Of a stretch of DNA of 64,000 bases, positions 3,426-61,385 are shown piece by piece. Position 1 is the stretch's first letter. Every line of letters starts with the position of its first letter. Under the pieces are notes generated by a model, which saw only the letters and a list, made by a program, of their open reading frames with translations, searched no databases and had not been told where the DNA came from. The position numbers were made by a program, and so were the translations under genes. Origin of the DNA: Bacillus sp. ISL-7 (GTDB lineage: Bacteria; Bacillota; Bacilli; Bacillales_B; DSM-18226); contig NZ_JAGGQW010000031.1 in assembly GCF_018613065.1 (NCBI RefSeq), positions 124,001-188,000 on the forward strand, written 5' to 3'.

Positions 3426-3510
3426 TTTAAGGCTATGTTAAAGGGGTATTGTTGGTTTTATAGCTAGTTGATTGGAGTTGAAATTTAACAGATCCTATAA
3501 AAAAAACGAA

Positions 3511-3546
3511 AATGCCTTGCAGCTTTTATACTGCAAGGCATTTTTC
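3511..3546. terminator. Second hairpin terminator, bidirectional
   Basis: AATGCCTTGCAG (3511-3522) pairs perfectly with CTGCAAGGCATT (3531-3542) and has A and T tracts on both sides. No gene is obviously served by it; it may back up the yjbH terminator. The 3395-3774 stretch otherwise holds only the palindromes described under findings and a TATAAT at 3629-3634. Confidence 0.7.
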
Positions 3547-3774
3547 TATTATACGAACAAAGGGGATGGGAGAAATTTTTCACGGTTCAAACAAAGGGGT
3601 ATATGTTTGTTGTGATCAACTTCACGTATATAATATAGCATGGGGTTAAAGATACTGACAATAAGTTTGTGCTTTATTTCACATAATTGTCAAATATCAT
3701 AATTTCATGGAATGGACAATAGACATAATAGTACGAAGAATGAAAACTACTTTTTAAAAGGGTGGCCATGTTCG

Positions 3775-17461: not shown

Positions 17462-17489
17462 AAGAACAATTGTATAGTTGCTTAACAGG

Positions 17490-18768
<1,279 letters not shown>

Positions 18769-32749: not shown

Positions 32750-35344
32750 CTAATGAACCGATAAAGTAATCTCACCGTCGTTAATATTTATTTCCACTCT
32801 AGACTGATCATGTAACTTGCCAGCGATAATTTCACGGGCTAGCTTGGTTTCAATGTTTCTTTGAATAAATCGTTTTAAAGGCCTTGCCCCATAAATTGGA
32901 TCAAATCCATTTACGGCAATGAATTCTTTTGCTTCCTCATTAATGATTATATCAATTTGTTGATGTTTTAACCGATTTTGAAGTTCTCTCATCATTTTGG
33001 CAACGATATTCTTAATTTCATCCAATGATAGCGGCTTAAAGAGGATCGTCTCATCGATTCGATTTAAGAACTCAGGACGGAAATGTCCCCGTAATTGACT
33101 CATCACTTTCTCCCTTACCTCTTCAGAGATTTCAACCTCGGTTTCACTTCTTTCTAGTAAAAAATGTGAGCCAATATTAGAAGTCATTATAATAACTGTA
33201 TTTTTAAAGTCAACGACACGCCCTTTTGAATCTGTAATTCTTCCGTCATCAAGCGCTTGTAAGAGAATGTTAAATACCTCAGGATGAGCTTTTTCAATTT
33301 CATCCATTAAAACAACAGAATATGGTCTTCTCCTTACTGCTTCCGTCAATTGTCCGCCTTCTTCATAGCCAATATAGCCTGGAGGGGCTCCAATTAGGCG
33401 GGACACAGCATGCTTCTCCATATATTCAGACATATCGATACGTATAATATGTTCCTCACTGTCGAATAAAGACTCGGCCAATGCTTTCGCTAGCTCCGTT
33501 TTCCCAACACCTGTCGGACCTAAAAATAAAAATGATCCAATTGGTCGATTAGGATCCTTAATTCCAGCACGCGCCCTGAGTACTGCATCTGCCACTAAAT
33601 TTACTGCCTCATTCTGGCCGATGACTCTTTCGTGTAGGATGGATTCCAATTTTAACAGCTTTTCTCTCTCCCCTTCTACTAGCTTAGAAAGGGGTATTCC
33701 TGTCCATCTTGATACGATATTGGAGATTTCTTCTCCAGTAACTTCTTCACGAAGCAAACGTTCATCCTTAGCAGTTGCTTTTTCGAGTTCCTTTAGGTCT
33801 TTTTCTGCTAACGGAATTTGACCGTGGCGAAGCTCTGCCGCTCGGTTTAAATCGTATTTATCTTCAGCTTGTTGAAGCTCCCTGCGAAGTTTTTCCAGTT
33901 GTTCTCTTTTCTCCTGCAATTTCTGTATACTTTGTTTCTCTTGAAGCCATTTCGCCTTCATTTCATTGGCTGTTTCTTTTAAATCAGCTAGTTCTTTTAG
34001 GAGTGCCTCCAGCCTCAACTTGCTCCCCTCATCAACCTCTTTACTTAAGGCAGCTTCTTCAATTTCCAATTGCATAACCCTGCGTGTTACTTCATCTAAT
34101 TCGGTAGGCATTGAATCTATTTCAGTACGTATTAACGCACAAGCCTCATCGACTAGATCAATTGCTTTATCAGGCAAAAAACGATCGGTGATATAACGAT
34201 CAGATAATGTGGCTGCAGCAACCAAGGCATGGTCATGAATTTTAACACCGTGATGCACTTCATATCGTTCTTTTAACCCTCTTAAGATTGAAATGGTATC
34301 TTCAACGTTTGGTTCTTGAACCAGTACCTGCTGAAATCTACGTTCAAGCGCTGGATCCTTTTCAATATATTTTCGGTGCTCATCTAGAGTAGTTGCTCCA
34401 ATACAATGAAGTTCACCACGGGCCAGCATTGGTTTTAACATATTACCTGCATCCATCGCGCCTTCCGTCTTACCGGCTCCTACGATCGTGTGAATTTCAT
34501 CAATAAATAACAATATTCGTCCTTCACTTTTTTTGATTTCATTTAGGACTGCTTTCAATCTTTCTTCAAACTCACCTCTAAACTTGGCTCCAGCAATTAG
34601 TGCACTCATATCCAATGAGAAAATTGTTTTATCTTTGAGTCCTTCCGGTACATCTTTCCTAACTATCCTTTGTGCCAACCCTTCCACAATTGCAGTTTTC
34701 CCTACACCAGGTTCACCGATTAAAACAGGATTATTCTTTGTCTTCCTTGATAATATCCGAATTACATTGCGGATTTCAGAATCACGGCCAATTACTGGAT
34801 CCATTTTTCCTTCTTTAACCTCAGCAACAAGATCCCGTCCATATTTTTTTAGTGCTTCGTATCCTGCTTCTGGATTTTGTGATGTCACTCTTTGGTTCCC
34901 CCTGATTTCTTTAATTGCTTGCAAAACTTTGTCTGGTTGAATTCCAACGTTTTGTAAAATCTTTCGCATTTCTGAATCCTTCGCGTAGACAGCAGCTAAC
35001 AGAATATGTTCAACCGATAAATACTCATCAGAAAACTTTTTGGCAAACTCCTCGGCACTGACAAAAATTTTTTGCAGCTTGGCTGTGATATAAAGTTTTC
35101 CCTGTTCAACCCCGCTTCCCGTAACCTCTGGTTTTTTAGCAAGAGCAGCAGTAAGGTTCTTTCTAATTTTTTCGGGAGGGACACCTGACTTTTCTAATAT
35201 AGAAGAAATGAGACTATCTTCTTGATCCATTAAACATAAAAACAAATGGGGTTCATCAATCTCTTGATGGTTTTTTTTTACAGCTAGCGACTGAGCATCC
35301 ATTAGCCCCTTTTGTAACCTTTCTGTCATTCGATTCATATCCAT
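32750..35344 (-). CDS. clpB: ClpB protein disaggregase
   Basis: An 864-residue Hsp100 ATPase that pulls proteins from aggregates together with DnaK. In order: N-domain (about 1-150), AAA1 with Walker [17 protein letters not shown] (about 206), the coiled-coil M-domain (about 410-525, rich in Lys/Glu/Leu heptads), AAA2 with [18 protein letters not shown] (about 605) and a C-terminal sensor-2 domain with [15 protein letters not shown]. There is no ClpP-binding loop. B. subtilis 168 lacks clpB, so this is a difference from that species. A CtsR operator lies directly upstream. Confidence 0.98.
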
Positions 35345-35359
35345 TTTTCATCACACCTC

Positions 35360-35414
35360 TTTGACCAATTTTGACCTTTTCTTTTATTATAAAACGTCAA
35401 ATATAAAAAGTAAA
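35360..35414 (-). promoter_or_regulatory. clpB promoter with CtsR operator
   Basis: The tandem heptads GGTCAAA-ATT-GGTCAAA (minus strand, 35360-35376) match the CtsR operator. Upstream are TATAAT (35386-35391) and a weak -35 TTTACT (35409-35414), 17 bp apart. CtsR represses class III heat-shock genes, and clpB is a known target in low-GC Gram-positives that have it. Confidence 0.85.
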
Positions 35415-35475
35415 TTTTTGCAAAGAAGAAAAACAGCAAAAATTGCCCACAAACGCCAAGGCGCAGGCAAAAGAA

Positions 35476-35507
35476 AAAGCCACCCTATGGATGACCTTTT
35501 CCTTATT
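35476..35507 (-). terminator. yjzC terminator
   Basis: AAAAGGTCATCC / GGGTGGCTTTTT stem with G-T pairs (minus strand) follows the yjzC stop and ends in T5. Confidence 0.6.
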
Positions 35508-35510
35508 TAT

Positions 35511-35690
35511 TTATGGTTTCCGCTGATATGTCCAAACACGTTCATCATTTGATGTTTCAGGAAATGGATCCCCTGCTTTTAGCCTTATTTTTTTGGGATT
35601 ATTAACATTGCTTTCCGTGTCACCGATTTCAACATACACCCCATTATTAGGTGCTTTTTTTCCTGATTTAAACTGATGATTTTGGCCCAT
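35511..35690 (-). CDS. yjzC: YjzC small conserved protein
   Basis: A 59-residue gene. It starts MGQNHQFKSGKKAPNNGVYV and ends NDERVWTYQRKP, the same length and pattern as B. subtilis YjzC. AGGAGGG (35697-35703) lies 6 nt before the ATG. It is upstream of clpB on the same strand, with its own terminator between. Function unknown; members are common in Bacillaceae. Confidence 0.85.
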   Translation of the reverse strand: MGQNHQFKSGKKAPNNGVYVEIGDTESNVNNPKKIRLKAGDPFPETSNDERVWTYQRKP

Positions 35691-35971
35691 TTTTTTCCCT
35701 CCTTCTCTTCTACATCTTTATTATTACCTTTTTGTTAGCGGCCCATTATTGGAATTTTTTTGCAAATTATCTTATTAGTCGACATTATTTCCTAAGAAAT
35801 ACGCAAAGATTCTTCAAACTTTTGACGATTGTATGAACTTATTGCTCATTTGTTGCTAATTATTCTTTGTTAACAATATAATTATAGTATTATCTAGCAA
35901 ATTAAACCTTGACTGTCATTTTTTTAAATCAAATGAGCATTGAATTCGTACCTTTAAAGGTGGTTATGAGT

Positions 35972-36664
35972 ATGCAGTCAGTAAAAGAAATGCCGGTAAC
36001 ACTGTCCCATCTTTTTGATACCGTTCACCATATAAAAAAAGTTGAAAAAGGTACCTTTTTATTTCAAGAAGGCTCTGTAGCCGATGAATTGTATATTGTT
36101 CAAAGTGGCATTCTTCAAATCAGCAAGATCATCCCTGACGGAAGAGAACTTACGTTAAGAATGTGCTCGCGTGGTGATTTTGTTGGTGAATTAAACTTAT
36201 TTTCCCCTTCTTCAAGATATTTATTAAGTGCACGTGTTGTCGAGAGTGGTGAAGTAGCCGTTATTATGAAAGACATGCTTGAAGAAAAACTCTCGCAAAA
36301 TCTGGCACTTTCATTTGAATTCATTAAGTGGATGAGTCAACAATATCGAAAAACACAAACCAAGTTTCGTGATTTGGTTCTTCATGGAAAAAAAGGGGCT
36401 CTTTATTCCACACTTATTCGAATTACCAATAGTTATGGAATTAAAACCAATAAAGGAATATTAATTGAATTACCATTAACCAATCAAGAGTTAGCCAATT
36501 TTTGTGGTACATCAAGAGAAGTAGTAAATCGCTTGTTGAGCGATTTACGTAAGGCCGGTATCCTGTCAATAGATAAAGGAACAATTACTATTCATGATTT
36601 AGAGTATTTAAAACGGGAAATTGATTGTGAAGATTGTCCAACCGAAATCTGTAAAGTTGATTAG
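35972..36664 (+). CDS. fnr: Fnr, oxygen-sensing [4Fe-4S] transcription regulator
   Basis: A 230-residue Crp/Fnr-family regulator of anaerobic genes. A cyclic-nucleotide-like beta-roll (about 20-105, GTFLFQEGSVADELYIVQSG) leads to a dimer helix. The helix-turn-helix follows at LTNQELANFCGTSREVVNRL (about 169-188). The C-terminus carries C219-x2-C222-x4-C227, the Bacillus-type cluster site, and D134 in KFRDLVL is the likely fourth ligand. This layout differs from the N-terminal cluster of E. coli FNR. The start at 35972 is favoured by AAAGGTGG about 8 nt upstream. Six Fnr-type operators lie within the next 7 kb. Confidence 0.93.
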   Translation: MQSVKEMPVTLSHLFDTVHHIKKVEKGTFLFQEGSVADELYIVQSGILQISKIIPDGRELTLRMCSRGDFVGELNLFSPSSRYLLSARVVESGEVAVIMKDMLEEKLSQNLALSFEFIKWMSQQYRKTQTKFRDLVLHGKKGALYSTLIRITNSYGIKTNKGILIELPLTNQELANFCGTSREVVNRLLSDLRKAGILSIDKGTITIHDLEYLKREIDCEDCPTEICKVD

Positions 36665-36684
36665 GATTGCTGCTGGCAAACAAC

Positions 36685-36825
36685 TTAAAATAAAGCAAAA
36701 AAATCGGTCATATCGACCGATTTTTTTATTTTAATAAGATTATTTGAATTGCCAATGACACCAAGCCAAAAAGGGATGATTAGCATTGCCCACGCACCAT
36801 GTTGTTTCGGTAAAAATAACTCCAT
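36685..36825 (-). pseudogene. ywiC: Truncated ywiC remnant (first about 24 codons)
   Basis: A 46-codon frame starting MELFLPKQHGAWAMLIIPFW, which matches the beginning of YwiC-like membrane proteins (usually about 240 residues). After about residue 24 the similarity ends and the frame runs through the fnr terminator to a stop at 36685. The SD GAGGAGTGA and a consensus Fnr promoter upstream are intact. ywiC neighbours fnr in B. subtilis. A functional micro-protein cannot be excluded, but deletion of the gene body is simpler. Confidence 0.55.
36700..36727. terminator. fnr terminator
   Basis: AAAATCGGTC (36700-36709) and GACCGATTTT (36715-36724), followed by T-rich sequence. It lies inside the ywiC remnant frame. 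Confidence 0.85.
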
Positions 36826-36855
36826 TATTTTCACTCCTCTTCCTTGACTAACCTA

Positions 36856-36898
36856 AATATAAGCCAGCTAAGCGGAAAAATAAGTGAAACACATCACA
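36856..36898 (-). promoter_or_regulatory. Fnr-dependent promoter of the ywiC remnant
   Basis: The minus-strand TGTGATGTGTTTCACT (36883-36898) is a perfect TGTGA-N6-TCACT Bacillus Fnr box. TATATT (36856-36861) serves as -10, placing the box centre near -41.5. Confidence 0.75.
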
Positions 36899-36909
36899 TA
36901 ATTACAGTA

Positions 36910-36935
36910 AAAAAGAAGGACTCCGCCTTCTTTTT
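36910..36935 (-). terminator. Terminator of the Fnr-driven short transcript
   Basis: AAAAAGAAGG (36910-36919) pairs with CCTTCTTTTT (36926-36935); on the minus strand it ends in T6. Confidence 0.75.
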
Positions 36936-36987
36936 GTGACAAATTTGTTTAGGTTAAAATGGAAGTACAGCAAATCTATCTCATCTA

Positions 36988-37077
36988 CTAGGTAACTTCA
37001 ATCATCTCTAGGTCGGTTATCTGATGAGTGATTGCTGTATTTCCATTAAAGACCCATAATTCTATTTTAACAAACAT
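36988..37077 (-). CDS. Possible 29-residue micro-protein in the Fnr-driven transcript
   Basis: An ATG at 37077 preceded by AGGGGAT (37081-37087) opens a 29-codon frame starting MFVKIELWVFNGNTAI and ending TDLEMIEVT, closed by two TAG codons. The spacing of the SD is short but usable, and it would lie at the very 5' end of the predicted RNA. The 5' arm of the long hairpin falls inside the frame. Homology is unknown, and it may be chance. Confidence 0.35.
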   Translation of the reverse strand: MFVKIELWVFNGNTAITHQITDLEMIEVT

Positions 37078-37094
37078 TATATCCCCTAATTTGT

Positions 37095-37137
37095 ATTGTA
37101 GAGTATATCCATATTTCAAGCTGTGACAAAAGTAACA
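37095..37137 (-). promoter_or_regulatory. Fnr-type promoter downstream of mobB
   Basis: The minus-strand TGTTACTTTTGTCACA (37122-37137) differs from TGTGA-N6-TCACA at one base. TACAAT (37095-37100) has the same spacing to the box as the other Fnr promoters here. The box is also part of an AGCTGTGAC / GTAACAGCT inverted repeat. Confidence 0.55.
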
Positions 37138-37152
37138 GCTTTGACAATTTTA

Positions 37153-37701
37153 TTAACTTTTTTGATCAATATTATGAACAAGCTCCTGAAGTACTTGCGC
37201 AGTCCAGATTAATGCACCTTCATCGTTGATATGAAAGCTGGGCACATTGATTCTTGATGTGATTTGCTCTAGCATTACTTCCTTCCAATACACAATAGCT
37301 GAAACATTACTTACGGTATCTAACAAAGTAAGGTCACTTTCATCTCTTAATAGGAGTAACTTCGGGAAGGACTTAAACTTATAGCCTTCGATTAATATTA
37401 CATCTGGATGAAAGAATTTCATTAACTCAATCTGATCTTCTAGTGATGGATAGAAATTGTCAGCCTGTAACATTAAACTTCCATCTCCTTCCACAATCGA
37501 GGCAAGAGCACCTGCATTTAGATGTTTTTCTGTATCTTTCTGCGGTAGCGCTGCGAGCCTTCCTCCATGACCATGATGCTTAATCGTAACTGTTTTAAGT
37601 CCTTTTTTTACTAAGTCTTCGATCATTTTGGCTGTTATGGTTGTTTTACCACTATTTTGATAACCAACCACCTGAAAGATAACAGGCTTTACCAAGGCCA
37701 C
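37153..37701 (-). CDS. mobB: MobB, molybdopterin-guanine dinucleotide biosynthesis protein
   Basis: A 182-residue GTP-binding protein that assists attachment of GMP to molybdopterin. The N-terminal KPVIFQVVGYQNSGKTTITAKM holds the P-loop (NSGKTT, about 15-20). HHGHGGRLAALPQKDTEKHLNAGA and DVILIEGYKFKSFPKLLLLR (about 98-117) match the family. The GTG start overlaps the end of moeA by 13 nt, so it is co-translated from the moeA message. No mobA is adjacent. The cofactor probably serves nitrate reductase or similar enzymes elsewhere. Confidence 0.93.
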   Translation of the reverse strand: MALVKPVIFQVVGYQNSGKTTITAKMIEDLVKKGLKTVTIKHHGHGGRLAALPQKDTEKHLNAGALASIVEGDGSLMLQADNFYPSLEDQIELMKFFHPDVILIEGYKFKSFPKLLLLRDESDLTLLDTVSNVSAIVYWKEVMLEQITSRINVPSFHINDEGALIWTAQVLQELVHNIDQKS

Positions 37702-38954
37702 ACACTGCCAACCTGGTCTTCAAGCAGGAGGACATCCACTTCACTTCCGGCTGTAAAGCCTCTAGTTCCGCCTGGAAGAATCATCAACGAATTCGCTCCA
37801 GAAAGGCTCATAATAATGTTAGACTTGTCAAGTCCACTCGGTGTTGCCTTTAGTCTTCCCGCATCTATAAATGTAGAACTTCGGACAAACCTTGTAAATG
37901 GATTGGCTTTAGGAAAATCTACTTCTAAAAGAGCTTGCTCTTTACGAAGGTGAGGTTTTTCTGAAAAAAGCAACCTACGGATAATTGGACGGGCAAACAA
38001 TTCAAAGCCTACATAACAAGCCGAAGGATTACCCGAAAGTCCAAAGAGAAGCTTCCCATTGTGCTGTGCAACCGTCGTCACACTTCCAGGGCGCATGGCA
38101 ACTTTATTAAAGAAAACCTCTGCCCCAAGCTTTTCATAGATAGCAGGCAGATAATCAAAGTCCCCAACTGACACCCCGCCGGTGGTAATTAATAAGTCTA
38201 CTTCATTTATTGCTTTTTGAACTGCTTCAAAGCAAGTGTCAAATTCATCAGGAAGCTTTCCAAAATAGTGAACAATGCCTCCCGCTCTTTCAATTTGGGC
38301 TGCAATCATATGTGAATTACTATTACGAATTTTTCCTGGAACCAAGGCTTCATTTACTTCTAAAAGCTCTGTCCCTGTTGCAAACAAACCAATACGTGGC
38401 TTTTTCGCAACGGACACTCGTTCATATCCAAACGTTGCAAGCATTGCTTGAATTCCAGGATTTATCAATGTTCCTTTTTTCACCAAAACTTCACCCTGCT
38501 TGGCATCTTCACCACTGAACGAAACATTATCACCCTTTTTAAAGCTGCGTTTAATGGACATATATGGGATTCCATTCTTTTCGTAGGCCTTTGCCACCTC
38601 AAACATAACGACAGCATCTGTTCCCACTGGCATCATTGCGCCAGTCATAATTCTAACAGCTTGGTGCTCCCCAATTACTTTAGTAGAAACCATTCCCGCG
38701 CCGATGTGATCGACCACTTCAAATTCAACTACATTGGATAGCGATGCCTCACGTGTATCGATTGACCTGACAGCAAAGCCATCATACGGTGCACGGTCAA
38801 AATGGGGCACATCGCTAGTTGCGATCAAATCCTCCGATAAAAAGCGGCCAAAGCTTTCATTTATCGAAACTTGTTCGGTCACACCAAGTAATTGATATTC
38901 CATTATGCTTTTGACCGCTTCTCCAATTGGAATCGGTCTTCTTCTTTCGAACAA
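37689..38954 (-). CDS. moeA: MoeA, molybdopterin molybdenumtransferase
   Basis: A 421-residue enzyme that inserts molybdate into adenylated molybdopterin. Visible are FDRAPYDGFAVRSIDT (about 55-70), RIMTGAMMPVGTDAVVMFE (about 101-119), RIGLFATGTELLEVNE (about 184-199), DLLITTGGVSVGDFDYLPA and KLLFGLSGNPSACYVGFELF. The TTG at 38954 has AGGAG 9 nt upstream. First gene of moeA-mobB. A half-conserved Fnr site and a perfect TATAAT lie upstream, so anaerobic induction is likely. Confidence 0.95.
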   Translation of the reverse strand: MFERRRPIPIGEAVKSIMEYQLLGVTEQVSINESFGRFLSEDLIATSDVPHFDRAPYDGFAVRSIDTREASLSNVVEFEVVDHIGAGMVSTKVIGEHQAVRIMTGAMMPVGTDAVVMFEVAKAYEKNGIPYMSIKRSFKKGDNVSFSGEDAKQGEVLVKKGTLINPGIQAMLATFGYERVSVAKKPRIGLFATGTELLEVNEALVPGKIRNSNSHMIAAQIERAGGIVHYFGKLPDEFDTCFEAVQKAINEVDLLITTGGVSVGDFDYLPAIYEKLGAEVFFNKVAMRPGSVTTVAQHNGKLLFGLSGNPSACYVGFELFARPIIRRLLFSEKPHLRKEQALLEVDFPKANPFTRFVRSSTFIDAGRLKATPSGLDKSNIIMSLSGANSLMILPGGTRGFTAGSEVDVLLLEDQVGSVWPW

Positions 38955-39025
38955 AATAATCAGCTCCTGCCTTAAACAAATATCTATCCCTTGTGATATG
39001 TACTAATAGTCATCGACTAATCAAC

Positions 39026-39068
39026 ATTATAAGCTTATTAAAAACTAACTAACATATCAAATGTCACA
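39026..39068 (-). promoter_or_regulatory. Probable Fnr-type promoter of moeA-mobB
   Basis: On the minus strand TGTGACATTTGATATG (39053-39068) has a perfect upstream half-site and a poor downstream half. TATAAT (39026-39031) lies at the spacing shared by the other Fnr promoters. Confidence 0.45.
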
Positions 39069-39111
39069 AAATAAAAGAATCTTGCCAAAAAATATAAGAT
39101 CATAGGGAATG

Positions 39112-39154
39112 TGTGATTTAGGTCACCTTGTTTTTTTCTATTTTACATTATGCT
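39112..39154 (+). promoter_or_regulatory. Fnr-dependent promoter of ric
   Basis: TGTGATTTAGGTCACC (39112-39127) matches TGTGA-N6-TCACA except for the last base. TATGCT (39149-39154) is the -10 at the class II spacing, about 40 bp before the ric ATG. Confidence 0.7.
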
Positions 39155-39194
39155 TAGGTTAGATTTAATCTTGGACTTTGGGAGGAAATTAAAG

Positions 39195-39890
39195 ATGAGT
39201 TTTACAATTACAGCCAATTCATTAATTAAAGATATTGTTAACGAATTACCTAAAACAAGTGATGTTTTCAAAAAGAACCGAATCGATTTTTGCTGCGGTG
39301 GTAATATCCCGTTAACTGAAGCAGTTGCTCAAAATAAGCTTAACCTTGAAACTTTGTTAGATGAATTAAAAGAGGTATTTGAAAAATACGAAAACACCGA
39401 GAAAGATGTTGAGGTTTGGACTAATTCTGATTCAACTACAATTATTGATCATGTCATTTCCAACTACCATCGTGTATCTGAAGAGGAACTAACTATGCTA
39501 AGTCCCTATGTAACGAAGGTTTCACGTGTCCATGGAGATATCCATCCAGAGTTACTAAAGGTTTACGAACTCTTCTATGAATTCAAAAAAGAATTGATGG
39601 AGCATATGGCGAAAGAGGAAGCTGTTGTATTTCCATTAATTAAGCAGCTCGCGGATGGAACCGTGGAGAATCGTGAAGAAGCAATTGCAATGATTGTTGA
39701 ATTAGAAAAGGAACATGACCATGCCGGTGAAATTTTAAGAGAAATCCGTGCAGTAACTTCTGACTACACTCTACCTCTGGATGCATGCGGTACGTACCGT
39801 TTAGTATATGCACGCTTGGAAGCATTAGAAGGATTAACCTTTATGCATGTGCATCTTGAAAACAACATCCTATTTCCTAGGTATCTTTAA
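39195..39890 (+). CDS. ric: Ric/ScdA/YtfE iron-sulfur cluster repair di-iron protein
   Basis: A 231-residue protein that restores Fe-S clusters damaged by NO or oxidants. The N-terminal DUF542 domain has RIDFCCGGNIPL (C33-C34). The hemerythrin-like domain has its metal ligands in HVISNYHRV (His about 84), SRVHGDIHPEL, MEHMAKEEAVVFP (His about 137, Glu), ELEKEHDHAGE and FMHVHLENNILFP. GGGAGGAAA precedes the ATG at 39195. An Fnr box upstream and the Moco neighbours place it in an anaerobic/nitrogen-oxide response. Confidence 0.95.
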   Translation: MSFTITANSLIKDIVNELPKTSDVFKKNRIDFCCGGNIPLTEAVAQNKLNLETLLDELKEVFEKYENTEKDVEVWTNSDSTTIIDHVISNYHRVSEEELTMLSPYVTKVSRVHGDIHPELLKVYELFYEFKKELMEHMAKEEAVVFPLIKQLADGTVENREEAIAMIVELEKEHDHAGEILREIRAVTSDYTLPLDACGTYRLVYARLEALEGLTFMHVHLENNILFPRYL

Positions 39891-41199: not shown

Positions 41200-41750
41200 T
41201 TAAAAATCAGTAAAATTACTTCAGATGGCCGTGAACTTTCATTAAGAATTTGTGGAGAAAATGATATATGCGGGGAATTAACCCTATTTACTGATAACCC
41301 CAGATATTTATTAAGTGCAATGGTTCTTGAAGAAGGAGAAATCGTAGCAATAAAAAAGGATATAATCGAAAGTGAAATTTTCCAAAACAGTAAGCTGGCT
41401 TTTGAATTTATGAAATGGATGAGTGATCATTTCCGGAAAACACAAACAAAATTTCGCGACCTCGTTTTAAATGGAAAACGAGGTGCCTTTTCTCAACTCT
41501 TATCCGTATGTCGAATAGTTATGGTATTCAAAAAGATAATGAAATCTTAATAGATCTGCCGTTAACTAACCAAGAACTTGCCAACTTCTGCGGTACTTCG
41601 CGGGAGAGTACAAACCGTATACTTAGTGAACTAAAGAAAGATAAAATCATTTCAGTTAAAAAAGGAAAGATCTCAATATTGGATTTACAATACTTAAAAA
41701 ATGAAATCGACTGTGAAAATTGTTCTGCCGTTTATTGCAGTATCGAATAG
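41200..41750 (+). pseudogene. Decayed second fnr-like gene
   Basis: From 41200 one frame reads LKISKITSDGRELSLRICGE and continues through YLLSAMVLEEGEIVAIKKD to KFRDLVLNGKRGA, closely parallel to Fnr residues 48-143. The first 45 or so residues are missing, with no start. Near 41483-41490 one base is lost (GCC-TTT where GCN-CTT-TTC is expected), ending the frame. The remainder (MSNSYGIQKDNEILIDLPLT, the HTH, and CENCSAVYC) continues in another frame to 41750. Cluster ligands are still readable, so decay is recent. A hairpin at about 41783-41815 could be its old terminator. Confidence 0.8.
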
Positions 41751-61216: not shown

Positions 61217-61294
61217 AGAATTCATAGAACAACCATATATACATAGAAAACCTATGCAGACATATAATATCTATTTTGAAACACCCTGATCTTT

Positions 61295-61385
61295 CGTTAA
61301 CTGGCTGGCTTAGTGCAAATGCACCTTAGCCCCTGTAGCTTTGCGTCACTGATTTTCATCAGCTTTGCCTTTATCGAGACTCAGT
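61295..61385 (-). promoter_or_regulatory. Cyclic di-GMP-I (GEMM-I) riboswitch upstream of cpaF
   Basis: On the minus strand the aptamer reads CGATAAAGGCAAAG, then a CTGAT-GAAA-ATCAG hairpin with the GNRA tetraloop, GACGCAAAGCTACAGGGGCT, AAGG, a GTGCATTTGCAC hairpin, GCCAGCC and the closing TTAACG. GGCAAA, GACGCAAAGC and the GNRA loop are the conserved core of class I c-di-GMP riboswitches. A hairpin about 80 nt downstream may be the switch. The remaining 61167-61639 gap has no gene. Confidence 0.93.

Follow-up and report, generated by a model that had tools for sequence, protein, structure and literature searches.

Organization of the locus

The unit examined here lies on the minus strand of a 64,000-nt window, the whole stretch of Bacillus sp. 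ISL-7 DNA that was analysed, with mobB on one side and a ywiC remnant on the other (Table 1). Bacillus sp. OV166 and Neobacillus drentensis NBRC 102427, the latter carrying the unit (locus L316, genome G062), were among the closest relatives with a name. The truncated ywiC (36735–36825, minus strand) lacks about 620 bp present in genome G001, and its start is fused to the fnr terminator region. A second fnr-like gene (41200–41747, plus strand), about 60% identical to fnr, is frameshifted into two overlapping pieces; its uninterrupted counterpart in G001 lies about 6 kb from fnr. The window also carries a T-box leader (17483–17724, plus strand) and a c-di-GMP-I riboswitch (61293–61379, minus strand).

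Table 1. Features of the unit, its neighbours and its predicted partner in the window
Feature	Position	Strand	Remark
Fnr-type box TGTTACTTTTGTCACA	37122..37137	−	centred at about −41.5/−42.5
−10 element TACAAT	37095..37100	−	TATAAT/TAAAAT in relatives
RoxS-complementary 5′ end of the predicted transcript, GGGGATATAATGTTTGTT	37069..37086	−	starts 1–2 nt past the expected start
29-codon frame (29 codons + stop)	36988..37077	−	coding sequence not conserved
Imperfect long hairpin	36954..37050	−	arms about 37050–37032 and 36973–36954
Intrinsic terminator hairpin	36909..36935	−	
RoxS/RsaE small RNA gene, predicted partner	3510..3625	−	RF01820, 98.5 bits; pairing nt 15–30 = 3611–3596
fnr, presumed activator, convergent neighbour	35909..36664	+	C-terminal CEDCPTEIC
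mobB, upstream neighbour	37153..37701	−	PF03205
Fnr-type box of the ywiC remnant, distinct from the unit's box	36883..36898	−	ywiC start codon 36825

All elements from which the earlier note had assembled a short Fnr-driven transcript, namely the Fnr-type box, the TACAAT hexamer, the stem, the terminator and the 29-codon frame, were present in the sequence. The box matched the Fnr consensus TGTGA-N6-TCACA at 9 of 10 positions. Because its centre lies 29 nt from the start of the −10 element and transcription is expected to start at 37088 or 37087, the box falls at about −41.5 or −42.5; the expected transcript begins at about 37087 with AGGGGATATAATGTTTGTT. A stand-alone terminated transcript with an Fnr box at about −41.5 has the architecture of an Fnr-dependent small RNA, as judged from sequence and with the box absent from 2 of 23 units. 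The proposal of a short, terminated and probably regulatory transcript was supported in silico, with an Fnr-type promoter of class II. The unit was rejected as a promoter of ywiC, which has an Fnr-type box of its own and is missing from four loci where the unit persists (L037, L038, L045 and L049).

The window by itself appeared unconvincing, and it is conservation that carries the case. The predicted fold of the 190-nt RNA (−44.4 kcal/mol) was more stable than the shuffled mean of −33.4 kcal/mol (z = −2.9; 1 of 200 shuffles as good). A promoter scan of positions 35000–39500 returned 12 sites against 13.5 expected and paired the unit's neighbourhood with another −10 element (TATACT at 37102), and the terminator of the unit was absent from its output. 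No Rfam family, RsaE/RoxS (RF01820) included, matched positions 36850–37170 up to E = 1.

Distribution and conservation of the promoter and leader

Searches were made with a model of the promoter plus leader, based on sequence only, and matches at E < 1e-9 were called strong. Of the 61 genomes examined in the genus, 22 gave a strong match, and the match after these stood at 1e-3; the unit is therefore dispensable, as 39 of the 61 genomes lack a strong match. In a 299-genome sample of the order, G133, G294, G090 and G204 were the genomes beyond the genus that reached about 1e-4 or better, and a survey of 151 genomes of the family gave 35 with E ≤ 0.002. The loci of genus g130 and locus L272 were not counted as units, having no flanking moeA, mobB, fnr or narI-like gene (narIL). 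A plasmid search gave no match.

The promoter geometry was nearly constant: the distance from the box to the −10 element was 28–30 nt in all 23 aligned units (29 in 19, 28 in three and 30 in one), and a GGG started 6–8 nt past the −10 element in every one of them. Mean pairwise identity, calculated over 22 distinct sequences out of the 23 units (window included), reached 0.84 for the Fnr box and 0.85 for the −10 element and, within the leader, 0.96 for TGTTTGTT, 0.84 for the GGGG and 0.75 for the linker between them, compared with 0.40 in the spacer, 0.54 between the −10 element and the GGGG, and 0.42 in the 20 nt past the leader. An AT-rich block upstream (GTTAATAAAATTGTCAAA) was also conserved (0.87). 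By this comparison the promoter has been held, together with the first 18 nt of the RNA (GGGG...TGTTTGTT), while the surrounding sequence drifted. The two units that lost the box, L050 and L052, match the consensus at 3 and 2 of 10 positions, respectively, and L051 has a weak box (6 of 10). L050 and L052 (genomes G021 and G081) kept the RoxS-complementary leader described below though the box was lost.

The long hairpin and the 29-codon frame

The long hairpin described in the earlier note proved genuine where present. In nine sequences of the genus, 26 consensus pairs were predicted (19 in the hairpin and 7 in the terminator), and the compensatory changes proposed as a check were found at 8 of the 26, all of them hairpin pairs that changed on both sides. 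However, 8 of the 22 units in the genus (L037, L038, L039, L042, L045, L047, L048 and L049) have no such hairpin, and it was consequently rejected as the core of the unit. Matches of the middle segment elsewhere had raised the possibility of a repeat or mobile insertion; this too was rejected, the middle being the variable hairpin, and the scattered short matches inspected having in common a TTAACAAATTTGTCACA-like stretch or pieces resembling a terminator. The 5′ arm of the hairpin resembles the start of a narI-like gene (ATGGAAATGCTACAG in L064, ATGGAAATACAGCAA in the window), and from this resemblance the ATG GAA ATA CAG CAA read from 37046 is probably a fossil of such a start.

The 29-codon frame did not behave as a conserved gene in its start codon, its stop or its substitutions, and the suggestion of a microprotein was not borne out. 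Although the frame was intact in the nearest relative, L033, the difference there was one nonsynonymous and no synonymous change, and the proposed comparison of substitutions gave no synonymous excess: relative to the window there were 2 synonymous and 7 nonsynonymous changes in L031, 3 and 5 in L034, and 1 and 6 in L035. These last three loci have also lost the stop and carry TTG at the start. Of 29 gene-less units, 20 have ATG at the position of the start codon, 6 have TTG and 3 have TGG. The GGGG followed by an ATG is also what the ribosome-binding site of a short frame would resemble.

Complementarity of the leader to RoxS

The start of the leader is complementary to nt 15–30 of the small RNA RoxS/RsaE, a match that the earlier note had missed. 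RoxS was present in all 61 genomes of the genus, its core AAACATATACCCC being kept in 22 of 22 unit-bearing genomes and in 34 of the 39 others; in the window it reads GUGAAGUUGAUCACAACAAACAUAUACCCC. Upstream of roxS there is a TGTGAAATAAAGCACA dyad (3668–3683, minus strand), which resembles a Rex or Fnr site. Two genomes of genus g120, G362 and G384, gave four and three matches to RF01820, respectively, two of those in G362 lying 0.7 kb apart on one contig; RoxS may have been duplicated there.

In the predicted duplex, UGUUUGUU pairs with AACAAACA, followed by UAUA and then by the GGGG opposite C-rich region 1 (CRR1) of RoxS, with a mismatch or bulge of 1–2 nt in most loci. The unit thus carries, in silico and with exceptions, the conserved G-rich stretch complementary to CRR1 that is expected of a RosA-type sponge. 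The duplex of the window leader covered RoxS nt 14–32 at −18.9 kcal/mol. Across 27 gene-less leaders the mean was −19.8 kcal/mol, and the best duplex fell at the same site in all but one (L252); 11 narIL leaders averaged −23.9 kcal/mol, several of them pairing best at other RoxS positions. Loci L062 and L063 were added to this scoring later, L262 had no recognisable leader and L269 was left out. Folded alone, RoxS was predicted to pair CAAACA with its own UGUUUG and to expose CCCC in a loop, so the leader could first pair at the loop and then displace the strand. Predicted folds left the leader only partly free, with mean unpaired probabilities of 0.33–0.64 over 15 transcripts and of 0.39 for the window.

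Pairing energy as the sole argument was not decisive. Measured by duplex energy against RoxS nt 1–34, the leader site ranked 37th among 25,522 window positions, and dinucleotide shuffles of 38 individual leaders gave z from +0.3 to −3.0. For 13 loci, co-folding of the complete molecules, which includes self-structure, yielded energies between −7.8 and −12.4 kcal/mol; when only the leader was shuffled, no more than 2 of 40 shuffles did as well in 9 of the 13 loci and 5 to 12 of 40 in the other four. A strict motif, GGGGN{1,4}TATANTGTTTGTT, which fits just 6 of 22 units, had 6 matches in the 61 genomes, all within the unit, and 0 for its reversed control; a looser motif did no better than its control (35 matches against 53) among the first ten genomes listed. 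The positional and evolutionary evidence is stronger than the pairing energy.

Part of that evidence comes from variation between genera. When nine genera were each assigned their own RoxS seed, the summed energy was the lowest among 504 assignments, in a test devised after the data had been seen and with one seed common to six of the nine. Two genera were misfits: for g118 its own seed was the poorest fit, and g27, taken together, fitted another seed better by 0.1 kcal/mol. Scored singly, 27 of 40 leaders preferred their own seed; of the eight loci with an unusual seed, three did so (L064, L068 and L254) and five did not (L263 and the four of g118). In G376, RoxS CATAAA stands opposite leader TTTATG, and in g27, CATTTA stands opposite TTAATG in L068.

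The RoxS seed core had changed in 5 of 39 genomes without the unit and in 0 of 22 with it. A link between seed change and loss of the unit was considered and dropped (Fisher p = 0.059 when a sixth genome, G083, with a change in the arm only, was counted): we did not rely on it because the arm has changed as well in G026 and G084, which carry the unit, and because the genomes do not represent independent cases.

Relation to a narI-like gene

In 13 loci elsewhere (L061, L064, L068, L253, L254, L256–L258, L260, L262–L264 and L269), the same promoter precedes a gene some 150 codons long, usually between mobB and ywiC. Two of the products were scanned and gave partial matches to Nitrate_red_gam (PF02665) at 50 and 47 bits; the narI model TIGR00351 scored below its cut-off in one and had no match in the other. 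In Neobacillus, tblastn (E ≤ 1e-4) found a narI-like gene in none of 57 fnr-flanking stretches (from 61 genomes; three end at contig ends), and 21 of the 57 contained the unit; the unit of G021 is situated at a greater distance from fnr.

A moeA tree of 63 of the 73 planned rows, rooted at the midpoint, with L254 missing and L062 and L063 left out, united its 10 narIL rows in a group that arises by a single change (support 96/63). Beyond this group lay gene-less units from three genera, complete losses were repeated, and well-supported branches forced at least six label changes. L062 and L063 are gene-less units in another family. This pattern suggests that the narI-like gene was lost and that its promoter and leader were retained; since the tree was rooted at the midpoint, the direction of change is drawn from the shared leader. 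A role as leader peptide of the NarI-like gene was weakened by loss of the frame in several loci.

Three of the four loci in g118 (L256, L257 and L260) had a leader with no match to CRR1, and there the Shine-Dalgarno (SD) region of narIL paired with RoxS from nt 47 on at −25.9 to −29.2 kcal/mol, which 3 to 6 of 300 shuffles equalled. Such strong pairing suggests a different way in which RoxS can target the narI-like gene. In these loci the RoxS site may have switched from the 5′ end of the mRNA to the SD region.

Proposed mechanism and alternative explanations

We give roughly even odds (about 0.5) to the reading that the unit in Neobacillus, a group of soil bacteria, encodes an Fnr-induced sponge RNA that binds RoxS and was once the leader of an mRNA that has been lost. 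Comparison supports its basis, namely the promoter architecture, the complementarity and its conservation, some covariation and the absence of the gene. The promoter and the pairing are supported by these comparisons; from them we infer that the unit is transcribed in dependence on Fnr and that its RNA binds RoxS in the cell, affects it and functions as a sponge.

According to this reading, Fnr would activate the promoter at low oxygen and give rise to an RNA of roughly 180 nt, or about 60–80 nt in relatives without the hairpin. Its 5′ GGGG would pair with CRR1 in the loop of the first RoxS hairpin, and UGUUUGUU would then displace the UGUUUG strand of RoxS and pair with AACAAACA. Such pairing would cover the RNase Y cut (the Bacillus subtilis form begins at nt 20) if the numbering carries over, and RoxS could be restrained, or its processing by RNase Y altered, at low oxygen. 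The capacity of the sponge is tied to the abundance of the RNA. As to origin, an Fnr-driven narI-like mRNA would have lost its coding part and retained promoter, leader and terminator. More tentatively, and at somewhat less than even odds, we propose that gene loss thereby turned an mRNA into a regulatory RNA, the Fnr-driven leader, a RoxS-binding site even before the loss, now being a sponge under the control of oxygen and a link between the Fnr regulon and RoxS; as part of this proposal, the sponge would act on the 5′ arm of an NO/redox small RNA, the arm that RNase Y removes.

The main rival shares the pairing with the sponge and makes the unit a client of RoxS: RoxS would bind the extreme 5′ GGGG, shield the RNA from RNase J1 and so control it, and in relatives the narI-like mRNA would be shielded likewise. 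We consider this unlikely, even though RoxS, according to the account consulted (PMC5419742), binds four G residues at the extreme 5′ end of yflS, which is thereby protected, and though both the fixed placement of the GGG in 23 of 23 units and the similar leader upstream of narIL in several relatives agree with it. Gene-less loci would have no effector to protect and have kept the leader nonetheless, and yflS uses CRR3, whereas the predicted site of the unit is CRR1 plus the 5′ arm.

It is improbable that the conserved leader is a translation element, in which the GGGG serves as SD sequence, ATG or TTG followed by TTT GTT starts a very short peptide and the RoxS match is incidental or secondary. 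In favour of it, 26 of the 29 gene-less units have ATG or TTG where the frame would start, and in RosA, as described in PMC8216469, the G-run that binds RoxS is the SD sequence of a 7-aa frame. Three units nevertheless have TGG at the start, length and residues past MFV vary, nonsynonymous changes outnumber synonymous ones, and covariation with the RoxS seed would not be expected.

We think it quite improbable that the unit is a relic, the decaying promoter and leader of a lost narI-like gene with no present function. Repeated complete loss in the genus, with the six or more forced label changes, fits such decay, as does the decayed ywiC of the window; yet the box, the −10 element and the leader stand at 0.75–0.96 identity where spacer and downstream sequence have fallen to about 0.40, and the hairpin pairs change on both sides. 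Very improbable is a DNA-level site, the conserved start being bound by a repressor or ResD at the promoter: the upstream block GTTAATAAAATTGTCAAA is conserved and the leader abuts the start, but the conserved stretch stops where the RoxS complement stops and, from genus to genus, changes in part along with the RoxS seed.

Comparison with known systems

RoxS/RsaE is a widely conserved small RNA of Bacilli and Staphylococci. In the reports consulted, RoxS is activated by ResD, and cutting by RNase Y yields a form that starts at nt 20 and acts on a wider range of targets (PMC4409812); in B. subtilis, RosA is a CcpA-controlled RNA sponge of RoxS, for whose binding CRR1 is the essential contact (PMC8216469). 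The unit resembles RosA, as described there, in being a free-standing RNA that sets a G-rich stretch against CRR1 and in having a G-run that is also the SD sequence of a tiny frame. It differs, by the same description, in its Fnr-type box, in pairing that adds the RoxS 5′ arm AACAAACA, in its one G-run at the extreme 5′ end and in its apparent origin from a narI-like mRNA leader. RsaI of Staphylococcus aureus, a G-rich RNA reported to bind the RoxS homologue RsaE, is described as CcpA-regulated, conserved in Staphylococcus and not in Bacilli, and equipped with an additional C-rich targeting region (PMC8216469). The yflS leader likewise pairs four G at its extreme 5′ end with RoxS; as reported, it differs in belonging to an mRNA with an intact gene, in using CRR3 and in that protection from RNase J1 was shown (PMC5419742).

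The RoxS antagonists named in the literature consulted are CcpA-linked (RosA, and RsaI as proposed), and no Fnr-controlled RoxS sponge appeared among the papers listed by searches of open-access literature. An Fnr-controlled antagonist would tie oxygen sensing directly to RoxS, and the locus presents successive states, from gene with leader through leader alone to nothing, in which one can read how a small RNA sponge may arise from an mRNA. FnrS of Escherichia coli is a short non-coding RNA that regulates mRNAs. Its link to Fnr is documented in the source consulted (PMC8139620). The unit would resemble FnrS as a short non-coding RNA under Fnr and differ in its predicted partner, which is another small RNA and not mRNAs.
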